64,000 nt of DNA from Turneriella parva DSM 21527. Its GTDB lineage: Bacteria; Spirochaetota; Leptospiria; Turneriellales; Turneriellaceae. The first letter of the stretch is position 1. Each line of letters opens with the position of its first letter. Positions 11,018 through 63,440 of this stretch are shown here, in pieces. The notes beneath the pieces were generated by a model, which saw only the letters and a list, made by a program, of their open reading frames with translations, did no database searches and was not told where the DNA came from. The DNA lies in NCBI RefSeq assembly GCF_000266885.1, contig NC_018020.1:3224001-3288000 (forward strand), given 5' to 3'. Both the position numbers and the translations under genes were made by a program.

Positions 11018-11090
11018 AGATAGTTATCCTCTATATATTAAATACCCAAAAACGGGCATTTTTTCTCACGAGGATATATTTTTTTTTTTT
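11018..11090 (-). promoter_or_regulatory. AT-rich leader/promoter region of comM
   Basis: The gap between the prpF-side hairpin and comM contains a run of 14 T (plus strand) at about 11080-11090, several TATA-like hexamers and a GAGGAT about 8 bases before the comM ATG. A short ccc/ggg hairpin lies at about 11046-11057. It plausibly holds the comM promoter; exact elements cannot be fixed. Confidence 0.4.
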
Positions 11091-11128
11091 TCGCTTAGGA
11101 GTTGGCGCAAGCGCCAACTCCTAAGCGA
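11091..11128. terminator. Perfect 17-bp hairpin directly after prpF stop
   Basis: Two perfect 17-base arms (11091-11107 and 11112-11128) enclose a 4-base loop (caag). The outer arm ends on the base next to the prpF stop codon. Read from the minus strand it is followed by a run of A, not U, so it is not a canonical intrinsic terminator for prpF. It may act as a 3'-end stabiliser or a factor-assisted terminator. Confidence 0.6.
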
Positions 11129-12307
11129 TCAAAAGGCGTCGCCCGGAACGCGCACGAACCCTTCCATCAGCACGCGCGCGCTGCGGCTCATGATCGCCTT
11201 GGTGACGACCCATTCGTTACCGTCTTTGGCGGCCTTGGCACCAACGCGCAGCGTTCCCGATGGATGGCCGAAGTTCACAACTTCGCGGTCTTTGCCGCCC
11301 GCAGCGAGGTTCACCAGTGTGCCCGGTACGGCCCCCGCGGTGCCAATCGCGACCGCGCACGTACCCATCATCGCGTGGTGCAGCTTGCCCATCGAGAGCG
11401 CACGTACGTTGAGGTCGATCTCCGACGCTTTCACGTCTTTGCCGCTGGAGGACTTGTAGTCGGTGGGTTTGCCGACAAACGCAACTTTCGGCGTGTGCTG
11501 CCGGCTCGCGGCCTCTTCGACTGTCTTGATAAGGCCCATCTTGATCGCGCCGTGCGCGCGAATGGTCTCGAACATCGCGAGCGCTTTTGCATCGCTGTTG
11601 ATGTCGGTCTGCAGCTCGGTGCCCTTATAGCCAATGTCTTCGGCGTTCAAAAAAATCGTGGGAATTCCCGCGTTGATGAGGGTGGCCTTGAATTTGCCCA
11701 CACCAGGCACGTCGAGGTCGTCTACCACGTTGCCGGTCGGGAACATGGAACCTTCGCCGTCAGCCGGATCCATGAATTCGAGCTGCACTTCGGCCGCCGG
11801 AAAGGTCACTCCGTCGAGTTCGAAATCCCCGGTCTCCTGCACTTCACCGTTGGTGATCGGTACGTGTGCGATGATCGTCTTCTTGATGTTCGCCTGCCAA
11901 ATCTTCACAGTGCACAGGCCATTCTGGGGGATCTTCGCTTTGTCCACAAGCCCGCCCGCGATGGCGAATGGCCCGACTGCTGCTGAAAGATTGCCGCAGT
12001 TGCCGCTCCAGTCGACGAATGCCTTGTCGATCGAAACCTGGCCGAACAGGTAGTCGACGTCGTGATCAGCCTGCGTGCTTTTCGCCACGATGACGGTCTT
12101 CGACGTACTCGAGGTAGCTCCCCCCATGCCGTCGATCTGCTTCTCATACGGGTCGGGGCTGCCGATCACGCGCAGTAGCAGCGCGTCGCGTGCCGTACCA
12201 GGGGCCTGTGCAGACACCGGCAAATCTTGCAGGCGAAAGAAGACGCCTTTGCTCGTGCCGCCGCGCATGTATGTGGCGGGAATTTTGACCTGGGGAACAC
12301 TGCTCAT
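11129..12307 (-). CDS. prpF: 2-methylaconitate cis-trans isomerase PrpF
   Basis: 392 residues, the family length. It has the PrpF/DapF-fold N-terminus IPATYMRGGTSKGVFF with the conserved GGTSKG, followed by IDGMGGATSSTSK and WSGNCGNLSAAVGPFA, the Cys-bearing active-site segment. PrpF isomerises the trans-2-methylaconitate made by AcnD in the 2-methylcitrate cycle of propionate breakdown. Its partner acnD lies 5.5 kb away (17776-20382) on the same strand, with an IS30 element and other genes between. prpB and prpC are not in the window. The gene starts 70 bp from the left end of the IS, so its native promoter may have been displaced. No Shine-Dalgarno is seen. Confidence 0.92.
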   Translation of the reverse strand: MSSVPQVKIPATYMRGGTSKGVFFRLQDLPVSAQAPGTARDALLLRVIGSPDPYEKQIDGMGGATSSTSKTVIVAKSTQADHDVDYLFGQVSIDKAFVDWSGNCGNLSAAVGPFAIAGGLVDKAKIPQNGLCTVKIWQANIKKTIIAHVPITNGEVQETGDFELDGVTFPAAEVQLEFMDPADGEGSMFPTGNVVDDLDVPGVGKFKATLINAGIPTIFLNAEDIGYKGTELQTDINSDAKALAMFETIRAHGAIKMGLIKTVEEAASRQHTPKVAFVGKPTDYKSSSGKDVKASEIDLNVRALSMGKLHHAMMGTCAVAIGTAGAVPGTLVNLAAGGKDREVVNFGHPSGTLRVGAKAAKDGNEWVVTKAIMSRSARVLMEGFVRVPGDAF

Positions 12308-12373: not shown

Positions 12374-13339
12374 TTACATTCCAAAACGAAGTGCAATCGA
12401 CCTCCGAAAGTAGACCTCGGCTGGCGTCCGAAAATTCAGTCGCTTGCGTGGCCGATTATTCAGTAATTCGAGCGCCGCGTCAACCTGTTCCTGGTCGATT
12501 TCCCGAAAGTCCGTTCCCTTCGGAAATGGCTCGCGCAGCAGGCCGTTGGTGTTTTCGTTCGTTCCCCGCTGCCAGGGCGATCCTGGGTCGCAGAAATACA
12601 CTCCGCAATTCAGCACCTGTTGCAGGTCCCGGTATCCGCTCATTTCTGTGCCGCGATCATAAATCACACCCCGTAACAGAGAATTATCGACGTCTGCGAA
12701 CAGGTCGCGTGCAGCCGCGTTGAACTGCTCAACGAGTTTGCGCTCGATTTTTGCCGCCTTGGTGTAGCGCGAATGTCTTTCGACAAAGGTTGCGATTTGT
12801 CCTGTGCCGATTTTTCCCTCCACCAAATCACCCTCCCAATAGCCAGGTTTTCGCCGCGTCAAAGCCTCGGCTGGCAGGTCGTGAATGCGTAAAAACCCTT
12901 TGTTTTCAGCCTCAATCCGCACTGTGCGCTTGTATGGTTTTCCCTTGCGGCGCAGGCAAAGGCGATAGAAATTCGATGTGGCGGATTTCTTACGGATATG
13001 ATTATAGATCGTCTGCATGCAAACCCCGCCGAAGCGTTCAAGCCGCATACGCCCCGCGATCTGCTCCGGTGACAGCGTCGATTTGAGCGATGCGCCGATC
13101 TGTGACCAGAGTTCCGGGGTCACCTTTGCGGCGTTGGTATTCGTCTGGCGCCTGCGCGCTGCATCTTTTGCGCAGCGGGCGCTGTAATGCCGCGGCATTG
13201 AATTGCGGCGGATTTCACGATAAATGGTGCTCGGGTGGCGCTTCAGGTCTCTGGCAATACGTCCGGCATGGCGGCCCTGCCTGAGGCTTTCTTCTATACA
13301 CAGTCTTTCTTCATTGGATAGTTGAACGTAAGGTCGCAT
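12374..13339 (-). CDS. IS30-family transposase
   Basis: 321 residues from ATG 13339 (MRPYVQLSNEERLCIEE). The N-terminal HTH (RIARDLKRHPSTIYREIRRN) is typical of IS30. The DDE triad is visible: Asp in GYWEGDLVEGK, Asp in IYDRGTEMSG, and Glu in GTNENTNGLLR. The ORF looks intact. The last Met codon and the TAA (12374-12379) straddle the left inverted repeat end, so the stop appears to be supplied by flanking DNA. The longer in-frame extension to 13372 lacks family support. Confidence 0.95.
   Translation of the reverse strand: MRPYVQLSNEERLCIEESLRQGRHAGRIARDLKRHPSTIYREIRRNSMPRHYSARCAKDAARRRQTNTNAAKVTPELWSQIGASLKSTLSPEQIAGRMRLERFGGVCMQTIYNHIRKKSATSNFYRLCLRRKGKPYKRTVRIEAENKGFLRIHDLPAEALTRRKPGYWEGDLVEGKIGTGQIATFVERHSRYTKAAKIERKLVEQFNAAARDLFADVDNSLLRGVIYDRGTEMSGYRDLQQVLNCGVYFCDPGSPWQRGTNENTNGLLREPFPKGTDFREIDQEQVDAALELLNNRPRKRLNFRTPAEVYFRRSIALRFGM
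12378..12394. repeat. Left terminal inverted repeat of the IS30 element
   Basis: 17 bases identical to the reverse complement of 13414-13430. It overlaps the 3' end of the transposase gene. Confidence 0.9.
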
Positions 13340-13413
13340 CCGGGGTCTCCGTGGTCGTATTTCGCAAATCAACCTCGAAACCCCGGCGCGGCCTTACACT
13401 ACTTTATCCTATC

Positions 13414-13430
13414 GCACTTCGTTTTGGAAT
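13414..13430. repeat. Right terminal inverted repeat of the IS30 element
   Basis: 17 bases, the perfect inverse of the left end. It lies 75 bp upstream of the transposase ATG, so the transposase promoter must lie close to or inside this end. Confidence 0.9.
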
Positions 13431-13481
13431 CTACAGCCAGGTGAAATATAGCTAACTGAGGGCAGGCAGCCTTGGGGAGCT

Positions 13482-17249: not shown

Positions 17250-17801
17250 TCAAAGCGCGCGCGCCGGTTTGTGCTTCTTCAGCACCCTCGCGAGCGCCCC
17301 GCGCCGCGAGGCCGAGACGATATAACCCAGACACTTCTTTGTACCGCAGCGGCAGACGTGGTCTTGCCAGTAATCCATATTAAAGCCATAATCATAGGTC
17401 AGCTCTTCACCCGCCTTGATCAGGCGGCGAGACAGAATCCAAATGCGGCCCTGAATAATCTGCACCTCGCAGTTCGGGTCACACGAATGGTTGATCAGCC
17501 TTGCCTTGTTGTAGGGCACATTGCCGTCGATGTCGTACTTGCGGTTGAGAGTAAAGAGATACACATGCCCGGTGCCGCTTTTGCCCGCGCGCTGCATCTG
17601 CTTTTCGGCCAGAGCCTCGCTTTCTTTCACAGGTACAAGTTTGCCGACGTACTCAATGACTTTCGCGCCTTTGGGGATTGCCTGCGTCGCATAAACGCCG
17701 CGGCCGTGTTTTGGCGAATTGCTGACGCGGAGTTGGATTCTATTAGGCAGGGGGCTAGCCCCCTGCCTAATAGAATTATTTTTCTGACGCGAAGAAGTCA
17801 T
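17250..17801 (-). CDS. SET-domain lysine methyltransferase-like protein
   Basis: SET-domain protein. The core begins RIQLRVSNSPKHGRGVYA and continues with LINHSCDPNCEVQ (the NHSCxPN motif that closes the SAM/lysine pocket), GEELTYDYGF, and a post-SET zinc-type CRCGTKKCLGYI. All hallmark residues are present, so it is probably active; bacterial SET proteins methylate lysines on their own or host proteins, target unknown. The start is ambiguous. ATG 17801 lies inside the acnD 3' end and makes the protein read straight through the 17-bp hairpin at 17738-17775 (residues about 10-22). No ATG exists between the hairpin and the SET core. Confidence 0.85.
   Translation of the reverse strand: MTSSRQKNNSIRQGASPLPNRIQLRVSNSPKHGRGVYATQAIPKGAKVIEYVGKLVPVKESEALAEKQMQRAGKSGTGHVYLFTLNRKYDIDGNVPYNKARLINHSCDPNCEVQIIQGRIWILSRRLIKAGEELTYDYGFNMDYWQDHVCRCGTKKCLGYIVSASRRGALARVLKKHKPARAL
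17738..17775. terminator. Perfect 17-bp hairpin after acnD stop, inside the SET reading frame
   Basis: Arms 17738-17754 and 17759-17775 match perfectly with loop ctag; one more A/T pair joins the arm to the acnD stop codon. No U tract follows on the minus strand. Same architecture (17+4+17, next to a stop) as the hairpin after prpF. Confidence 0.6.
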
Positions 17802-31783: not shown

Positions 31784-32245
31784 ATGGCATTGAATAATGA
31801 ACAGAAGGCTGAACTCATTCGCCGGGGAAATACCCTTTTTAACGAAGGCCGCTACTTTGATGCCGGCAGGGTGTTCACGACAGTAGGCTACAAAACCGGC
31901 CTCATTCGCCTGGGTGACCTGTTTTATTTTGAAAAAGAAATGCCGCTCGTGGCGTATGGCTTCTATCGCAACGCCAACCACCGCCCGATGCTCGACAAGA
32001 TCGGCGAAGGTTTTGTGTTCGCGCTGAAATGCCTGCTATATGAACCGGGCGCAGAGCCAGAGAAATCTACGGTGCCGGCTCAGCCTGCGCCGGCGAAGGC
32101 GAAAGCTGCACCCATAGCATCAGAAGATGAATTCCGTGTGAGGCAGTCCAATTCGCCCGATGCGGGCATACCAGCCAGGCAACAAAAAGAAGATAAAGAG
32201 GCGAAAGTTGCCCGCGCAATAGCGATGCTGCAAAAGCTCGCGTAG
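31784..32245 (+). CDS. Small conserved-looking protein, helical N-terminus and Pro/Ala linker
   Basis: 153 residues, not recognised. The N-terminal 85 residues (ELIRRGNTLFNEGRYFDAGR, LIRLGDLFYFEKEMPLVAYG) look like one or two TPR-type helical hairpins. A Pro/Ala/Lys-rich linker follows, then a short charged helix (EDKEAKVARAIAMLQKLA). No signal peptide. It lies 31 bp behind the SpoIIE gene on the same strand and immediately before the large structured element at 32255. Confidence 0.65.
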   Translation: MALNNEQKAELIRRGNTLFNEGRYFDAGRVFTTVGYKTGLIRLGDLFYFEKEMPLVAYGFYRNANHRPMLDKIGEGFVFALKCLLYEPGAEPEKSTVPAQPAPAKAKAAPIASEDEFRVRQSNSPDAGIPARQQKEDKEAKVARAIAMLQKLA

Positions 32246-32560
32246 CACATTTTCACGACAACAATTTTCGCAGCTTCGGCTGCCGAACCCGCAGTGACTC
32301 GGCGGGAACTCGCGAAGCCAGAACAACGGGCGATTTTTTTTCGCAATTTTCGGCGCGATTTCGCCGAGAAGCGAAAAATCGGCGTGAATTTTGGCGTCTT
32401 CGCCACTTGCAGAGCGAATCGCGACCGATTCGCGGGGGAATTTGCGCCGATTAGGGCCGAAAATTGTGGAAAAAAATCGCACCAGCGAGTTCCCGCCGAG
32501 TCACCACAGCGCGAAGTTATTTTTGTCGTTCGCTCAGGCGCCTCGCCCGTCTAACTGGTT
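32246..32560 (+). other. 315-bp gene-free stretch holding a 275-nt multi-armed structured element
   Basis: No ORF of quality is present. The stretch folds into nested inverted repeats. Outer arms are 32255-32261/32523-32529 (7 bp). A hairpin at 32270-32283 has five pairs and a cUUCGg tetraloop. A perfect 20-bp stem is 32294-32313/32485-32504. A 25-position stem is 32330-32354/32456-32480 with two G.U pairs. A 16-position stem is 32377-32392/32437-32452 with four G.U pairs. Terminal hairpins are 32359-32376 and 32414-32433. All the wobble pairs are G.U only on the plus strand, which argues for a plus-strand RNA. It lies between two plus-strand genes and could be a 3' element of the first, a leader of the second, or an independent RNA or palindromic repeat. 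Confidence 0.75.
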
Positions 32561-32929
32561 ATGGTGTCGAAAACATTCAAGACCCTGGTCGTCGAGATCT
32601 GCGCGTCGCTGCTGATTGCGGCGGCGCTCGCAGGCTTTAATCTCGTGGCGAGCGAGACGCCAATGCCTGAATTCAGAAACGATGCAGATGCGAACCCGGT
32701 CTTGCTCGCGCATGGCCGTGGCGGCGGTAACCGGGGCGGGCGCCACCATCGGGGTGGTATCGGGCATCGCCCGCGACCTCAGGGGCAAAGGCATCACCAC
32801 GGAAACGGTGCGCGCACTGGCAACAATGCACCGACGCCGCAGGGGCAGCCGGCGATCGCACCCGATGCTGCTCCGCAACCGGTGCCGGCAGCGCCCGTTA
32901 CCGGCAACGAACCCCCTGCGGTCAGGTAA
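32561..32929 (+). CDS. Small exported His/Gly/Arg-rich protein
   Basis: 122 residues. An uncleaved or cleaved N-terminal hydrophobic helix (CASLLIAAALAGFNLVAS) precedes a short acidic part, then a low-complexity region rich in Gly, His and Arg (GRGGGNRGGRHHRGGIG, GQRHHHGNG) and a Pro/Ala-rich tail. The His clusters could bind metal. No family recognised. The ATG follows the structured element by 31 bases and has no clear Shine-Dalgarno. Its stop overlaps the convergent RND gene by 8 bp. Confidence 0.55.
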   Translation: MVSKTFKTLVVEICASLLIAAALAGFNLVASETPMPEFRNDADANPVLLAHGRGGGNRGGRHHRGGIGHRPRPQGQRHHHGNGARTGNNAPTPQGQPAIAPDAAPQPVPAAPVTGNEPPAVR

Positions 32930-62564: not shown

Positions 62565-63308
62565 TTGTTCTGCGGGGCAACCTGGTTGCGTGTCGATCTC
62601 TATCCTGAATTTCTAGAAATACTCGCGGCCGCGAAGGGCCTCGTCGCGGGCAGGCGCTTCTTTCTTTGGCGCGGAGAGCACGAAAGCGAGCCTGAAGGGG
62701 TCGATTTTTCGTTTCGGCCGGTCGTGTCAGAAAAACTGGTCGAACGCACGCTCGACAAGAATGCCTGCGTTCTCTGCACGCAGCGTATCTCGTACAAGCG
62801 GGGCCAGTTCAGTCCACAGCATCCGTCGCAGCCCTACCTGATGCTCGTACACAACGATTTTCTCGGCCCCCGGGGCGGCATCTATCAGAACAGCGAAGAA
62901 GACAGCCTCTTCGGCCGCATGGTCGAGCGTGTGCTCGGTTTCGCCCCGGCTGAGGCTCTTGTGCGCGAGGTGTTGCGCTGCCATTTTGCAGCCGAGCACC
63001 TGACCAATGCGGATCTATTACAGAACTGTTTCTCGCACCTGCGTGCCGACATTGAACACTACGGTATAAAGGGCATTTTGCTGTTCGGCAAGGCTGCGAG
63101 CCTTGTTTTTCCCGACAAAGCAAAACTCGAAAGCATGCAGGGGCAGGTATTCGAATGGCAGGGCGTGGCAACCACCGTCTGTGCGGGGCCCGGCAGGCTC
63201 GTCTATATGCGTGAGAAGGGTTTTGCGAAAGAGGCCATCGATGCTGAACGGCAGAAGATTTTTGCCGCGCTGACCACCTTTAAAGAAAAAATCATCGGGG
63301 GTGTTTAA
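62565..63308 (+). CDS. UDG-fold-like protein, unknown function
   Basis: 247 residues from TTG 62565; TTG 62586 is an alternative. The order CVLCTQRISYKRGQF, YLMLVHNDFLGPRGGIYQ, LRCHFAAEHLTNADLLQNCF and IKGILLFGKAASLVF resembles family-4-type uracil-DNA glycosylases, but the GE-(A)PG motif is replaced by HNDFLG and the catalytic HPS region by AGPGRL. It may be a divergent glycosylase or an inactive relative. It starts 5 bp after the DksA-like stop and its 3' end forms the left arm of a large hairpin. Confidence 0.45.
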   Translation: MFCGATWLRVDLYPEFLEILAAAKGLVAGRRFFLWRGEHESEPEGVDFSFRPVVSEKLVERTLDKNACVLCTQRISYKRGQFSPQHPSQPYLMLVHNDFLGPRGGIYQNSEEDSLFGRMVERVLGFAPAEALVREVLRCHFAAEHLTNADLLQNCFSHLRADIEHYGIKGILLFGKAASLVFPDKAKLESMQGQVFEWQGVATTVCAGPGRLVYMREKGFAKEAIDAERQKIFAALTTFKEKIIGGV

Positions 63309-63440
63309 AAAATCGCCGTGCAGGCGAAAACGCTGCATTTGCCTGCGGCAAACACACGCCGAGCGGCCTATTCAGGCCGGTTTCCGCCCGAGCGCCGCGC
63401 ATGTGCAGCGCGGTACGCGATTTTTTGGACACCCCCGATG
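63293..63440 (+). other. Multi-armed palindromic element over the end of the UDG-like gene
   Basis: A 24-position outer stem, 63293-63316/63417-63440, is complete if two T.G positions (63305-63306 with 63427-63428) count as wobble pairs; these are G.U only in plus-strand RNA. The UDG-like TAA (63306-63308) lies in the left arm. Four further hairpins are inside: 63319-63336, 63338-63352, 63364-63379 and 63395-63413. It resembles the elements at 32255 and 37688 in size and in having an A6-TCGC segment in the stem. It is probably a complex terminator or structured 3' element. Confidence 0.7.

Follow-up and report, generated by a model that had tools for sequence, protein, structure and literature searches.

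The bcr1-bcr3 repeats of the Bacillus cereus group, as characterized in the sections of the reports cited here, are intergenic sequences of ~100-400 bp that resemble miniature inverted-repeat transposable elements (MITEs), occur in tens of copies and are restricted to that group (PMC6542083; PMC3446304). About half of all bcr copies are described there as transcribed, within untranslated regions (UTRs), operons or units lacking an open reading frame (PMC3446304). The Correia/NEMIS, ERIC, RUP, YPAL/RU-2 and CIR families are summarized in the cited portion of another report as non-coding mobile repeats of 100-200 bp that give transcripts with long stems and that mostly have terminal inverted repeats and target duplications (PMC2229807). 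While the transcripts of bacterial MITEs form stems, it is usually unclear whether the folds are selected, and for whom. Here, we describe a 211-bp palindromic element of Turneriella parva DSM 21527, found in a 64,000-nucleotide stretch of contig NC_018020.1 (positions 3,224,001 to 3,288,000; hereafter the window). The element is a MITE-like non-autonomous transposon, and we consider it highly probable that one of its strands adopts a fold while single-stranded, most likely as RNA, and that this fold aids the element's own multiplication or persistence.

A mobile family of palindromes in Turneriella

A similarity search of the T. parva genome (4,409,302 bases in two contigs) located the element at 19 distinct places, with each match ending at or near a 20-bp stem. 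Besides the window copy, there are six copies with 91-95% identity to it and 12 with 70-81%. These copies are intergenic, lie at unrelated loci and occur on both chromosome strands. Diverged copies are present in five further species of the genus. Congeners G009, G010, G011 (202 bp) and G012 have copies of 202-214 bp, and the covariance model matched two more in G007; overall, most copies are 209-214 bp long. The same model found no copy in congener G008, in five other genera of the family or in four genera of the order's other families. Copies are rare in G007 and G011, both of which have fragmented assemblies. Plasmid and phage records held no match, and viral contigs and other phyla with the 20-base end pattern gave no significant match to the covariance model apart from a marginal one, a GC-rich 104-nt hairpin in L177 (23 bits, E 0.003).

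The ends of the element are terminal inverted repeats of ~20 bp, which are near-perfect in the other copies and perfect in the window copy, where they form the 20-bp stem that the preliminary description had correctly recorded. Their sequence varies by subfamily (GTGACTCGG.., GTGACCAGG.., GTGGGTAGGCCGG.., GAGCCTGTGCGCC.. or GAATTTAGG..), but the two ends of any one copy match each other, and the subfamilies have the inner part, AACTCGC, in common. Of the 50 copies checked, 30 lie between perfect 4-bp direct repeats, the sequence of which varies but is most frequently TTAG. Moreover, the orthologous intergenic region of G011, bounded by the same conserved and downstream genes, is an empty site. 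Together, the terminal inverted repeats, the 4-bp target duplications, the unrelated loci and the empty site in a relative identify the sequence as a MITE-like mobile element, the possibility that the preliminary description had listed last, as a mobile palindromic repeat. The length of 211 bp leaves no room for a reading frame the size of a transposase. One insertion (L009 in T. parva and L033 in G011) is apparently common to both species, with identical flanking genes.

Several variant forms were also observed. Minimal forms of 34-44 bp, made up almost entirely of two back-to-back terminal repeats, occur in G009 (L130, L131, L162, L199 and others) and in G010 (L243, L246 and L256), and most of them lack a perfect 4-bp duplication. 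Three copies of 251-260 bp in G010 (L109, L110 and L126) carry an identical insertion of ~48 nt in the apical hairpin; the insertion is itself a hairpin (GCCAAAGCG..CGCTTTGGC) and is found in two different subfamilies. In G008, the orthologous intergenic region (L062) is occupied by another palindromic repeat, GGAAGTTCTGCAAAAG..CTTTTTCAGAACTTCC, a further half of which lies downstream of the next gene.

A conserved fold with a preferred strand

The preliminary description had proposed a 275-nt structured element at 32255-32529. Its stems are well supported: the plus strand of 32240-32545 folds at -147.6 kcal/mol, compared to -103.3 +/- 4.8 for dinucleotide shuffles (z -9.2, 0 of 100 as stable), and the minus strand likewise folds far better than its shuffles (z -8.3). 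The bounds, however, had to be narrowed to 32294-32504. The first hairpin of that description, with its cUUCGg loop, is present at 32270-32283, but this hairpin and the outermost stem are assigned to the host flank because they lie outside every other copy, and the hairpin is also missing from the orthologous intergenic region of G011. The hairpin was therefore rejected as a component of the element.

When 30 diverse copies were aligned, they shared a branched consensus fold of 79 pairs in six helices. Paired bases occupy 97.4% of the cells, compared to 78.9% in shuffled controls and 31-46% when the partners were slid. Both sides have changed at 48 of 79 pairs (36.4 shuffled), and double-change cells number 405 (111 shuffled). 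The covariation score is 0.514, against 0.161 +/- 0.008 for shuffled and 0.05-0.13 for slid controls. The stems, with 79-84 pairs, are thus conserved among copies across the genus; a lack of such conservation had been named in advance among the findings that would refute the preliminary description. The apical hairpin and the surrounding junction are almost invariant in sequence. On the window copy the covariance model scores 218.6 bits on the plus strand and 57.6 on the minus strand. No Rfam family matched the window at the gathering score, and locally there were only sub-threshold chance matches.

The fold also has a polarity. Point mutation in a Watson-Crick stem is expected to give G.U and A.C equally often on either strand. 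The window copy has seven G.U, no A.C and one other mismatch among 84 consensus pairs, so the plus-strand G.U excess reported earlier holds for this copy, and it extends to the family as a whole. On pairs found by folds of both strands, G.U outnumbers A.C by 139 to 33 (36 versus 5 by columns, p = 8e-7), and the excess persists when the pairs are defined from the minus-strand fold. Private changes within subfamilies show the same tendency (47:22, p = 0.004). In a tree of 48 copies, for which parsimony and the non-independence of copies make branch counts approximate, departures from Watson-Crick pairing give G.U and A.C in ratios of 52:24 (terminal branches) and 27:6 (internal branches). Pairing was kept or broken in a ratio of 94:69 on terminal branches and 129:28 on internal branches (Fisher p = 2e-6), indicating that lineages leaving descendants kept the fold better than individual resident copies did. 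The more faithful pairing of the internal branches suggests a role of the fold in the propagation of the element itself. At the insertion common to T. parva and G011, two pairs have compensatory changes, there are several G.U exchanges and a few pairs are broken; with the structure of the family, paired columns changed less than unpaired columns only at p = 0.10.

Explanations for the element and its fold

DDE transposases insert with a short, fixed duplication and act on elements with terminal repeats. Because the present element shows both of these habits, transposition in trans is the best reading of its mobility: a DDE-type transposase encoded elsewhere would recognize the ends and insert the element with a 4-bp stagger. 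Such transposition alone does not account for a conserved, strand-specific fold. In the explanation preferred here, one fixed strand would additionally fold as a single-stranded molecule, and folding would help the element to multiply or persist rather than serve a neighboring gene. The G.U:A.C signature favors the folding of one fixed strand, for which RNA is likeliest and single-stranded DNA that tolerates G.T is possible; to this extent, covariation and asymmetry back the earlier proposal of selection on plus-strand RNA. A stronger version, in which a DNA-transposon-like element needs a folded single strand, RNA or single-stranded DNA with a fixed polarity, in order to propagate, is offered only tentatively. 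If true, the element could not move without a transcript or single-stranded form serving as substrate or protector, and the stems would evolve by compensatory change while the ends recognized by the transposase drift in step.

A number of observations weigh against this explanation. Within the T. parva genome and the genus, no pairs of terminal repeats were found at transposon-like spacing with a gene between them. In G010, 20 solo ends face ordinary genes, and no transposase was found among the inward reading frames. None of the transposases retrieved through Pfam PF01609, PF00665 and PF01797 whose ends were inspected matched the element; other transposase families were not searched. In T. 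parva, unrelated ends were seen for the only DDE_Tnp_1 gene, for its three multi-copy rve elements and for a fully read Y1 locus. The missing enzyme may belong to another family, have been lost or be absent from the assembly. In addition, the target duplication of the window copy is itself imperfect (3 of 4 positions), the tree counts carry the uncertainty given above, and G.T wobbles are tolerated in single-stranded DNA as well, which leaves RNA unproven. Lastly, template-switch correction between palindrome arms could yield part of the covariation without selection, although it could not explain the G.U:A.C bias.

This last process is part of a rival view, namely that the element is an ordinary MITE, the palindrome of which is kept only by the matching of both ends to one transposase and by template-switch correction during replication, with a fold that has no function. 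The terminal repeats do covary between subfamilies, as shared transposase ends predict, and terminal branches, too, often show pairs in which both bases were replaced to give a different Watson-Crick pair (23). Covariation is not confined to the ends, however, but is also found in the internal helices 2-6, the side hairpins and unequal internal loops have been retained, and G.U exceeds A.C on one strand even with pairs taken from the fold of the other. A functionless fold is for these reasons possible but rather doubtful. It is also conceivable, though improbable, that the repeats are a stand-alone host RNA family, spread by transposition and retained for a benefit to the cell, for example as a stabilizer or processing site in 3' UTRs. 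The strand-specific pairing bias, the G.U excess on terminal as well as internal branches and the many copies that begin or finish within ~25 bp of a stop codon would fit such a role. Even so, genes are followed in either orientation about equally, resident copies keep the structure less well than the lineage as a whole, and the element is absent from G008 and rare in the fragmented assemblies of G007 and G011. Relative to neighboring genes, 17 copies are co-directional, 12 anti-directional, nine convergent and nine divergent, with no orientation bias seen. Because the copies face their neighbors in all directions, the strand-specific signal is unlikely to serve these genes.

The same observations bear on the earlier suggestion of a leader, perhaps a metal sensor, for the downstream His/Gly-rich exported protein. 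The element does lie upstream on the same strand, but it ends 56 bases before the ATG at 32561, rather than the 31 bases first given. G011 has the downstream gene but lacks the element at the orthologous site, the remaining 18 T. parva copies adjoin unrelated genes in every orientation, and Rfam offers no match. The empty site and the dispersed copies led us to reject a leader or riboswitch, which we regard as very unlikely indeed. A REP/BIME-type palindrome that relies on a Y1 (TnpA-REP/RAYT) transposase for its movement would be in keeping with the Y1 genes in five of the seven genomes of the genus and with the 34-44-bp palindromic forms. Nevertheless, the 4-bp target duplications are clear, and the fully read Y1 locus of T. 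parva has its own unrelated palindromes. Y1 transposition is not known to make target duplications, and movement of this kind is accordingly very unlikely. The explanation that combines transposition in trans with a fold serving the element itself is retained as the most probable.

Features of the window copy and other repeats

Table 1. Coordinates of the element and its flanks in the window. The plus strand is the strand with the G.U-compatible structure.
Feature	Position	Strand	Remarks
Whole mobile element	32294..32504	+	211 bp
Left terminal inverted repeat (helix 1, 5' arm)	32294..32313	+	GTGACTCGGCGGGAACTCGC
Right terminal inverted repeat (helix 1, 3' arm)	32485..32504	+	
Left target-duplication copy	32290..32293		CGCA, 4 bp; 3/4 match with right copy
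Right target-duplication copy	32505..32508		CACA, 4 bp
Helix 2, 5' arm	32330..32356	+	27 consensus pairs; changes on both sides at 22/27 pairs
Helix 2, 3' arm	32454..32480	+	
Helix 3, hairpin	32359..32376	+	Changes on both sides at 4/5 pairs
Helix 4, 5' arm	32377..32391	+	Changes on both sides at 7/15 pairs
Helix 4, 3' arm	32438..32452	+	
Helix 5, hairpin	32392..32405	+	
Helix 6, apical hairpin	32414..32433	+	Sequence almost invariant across subfamilies; 99.6% of cells paired; 5/8 pairs never vary
Host flank, outside element	32253..32293		UUCG hairpin and one half of outer stem
Host flank, outside element	32505..32529		Second half of outer stem, including right target duplication

Other repeats were noticed as well. 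A structured palindromic repeat of ~150 bp at 63287-63440 of the window, with arms CATCGGGGGTGTTTAAAAAATCGC and GCGATTTTTTGGACACCCCCGATG and several hairpins, has 12 matches in the T. parva genome, nine of them with 83-100% identity over most of the length, and is probably another mobile family. Inverted repeats ~1.06 kb apart at 12375-13433 are like the ends of a multi-copy element of the T. parva genome encoding a 339-aa rve transposase, and this region is probably a copy or relative of that insertion sequence. Two further palindromes, a perfect one of 20+20 at 17737-17776 (-41 kcal/mol) and a near-perfect one of 24+24 at 11085-11134 (-36 kcal/mol), are terminator-like or represent further repeats. 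In addition, L261:1429-1904 contains a gene for a 120-aa Y1 (IS200-type) transposase between two identical, perfect palindromes of 30 nt (TGTAGGGGTAGGTTTAAACCTACCCCTACA).

Comparison with known systems

In the literature searched, there was no report of the Turneriella element, nor does it have an Rfam entry. The nearest systems in kind are the bcr1-bcr3 repeats and the structured MITEs of PMC2229807. Like the Turneriella element, bcr1-bcr3 are intergenic, MITE-like and form stem-loops. The Turneriella element differs in its 20-bp GC-rich terminal repeats and varied 4-bp duplication, a comparison that for bcr1 relies on its published description only. Most of the structured MITEs are A+T-rich with 5'-TA-3' termini, and YPAL duplications range from 3 to 26 bp, as given in the cited portion of that report (PMC2229807). 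In contrast, the Turneriella element has a GC content of 55%, ends of the type GTGAC..GTCAC or variants of it, a fixed length of ~212 bp and a duplication of 4 bp. YPAL is reported to insert into palindromes that are already present; for the Turneriella element, such insertion was not seen above control. The REP/BIME sequences with their RAYT genes (PMC3733652) are also small extragenic palindromes in high copy number, a likeness that extends to the 34-44-bp forms in Turneriella, but the Turneriella element possesses target duplications, and no Y1 gene is known to be associated with it. A strand-specific pairing signature was not encountered for the bcr families or those of PMC2229807 in the sections cited. 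With ~100 copies spread over a few species, clean target duplications, a pairing signature that is asymmetric between the strands and at least one insertion that T. parva and G011 apparently share, the Turneriella family makes the question of whether such folds are selected, and for whom, directly testable.
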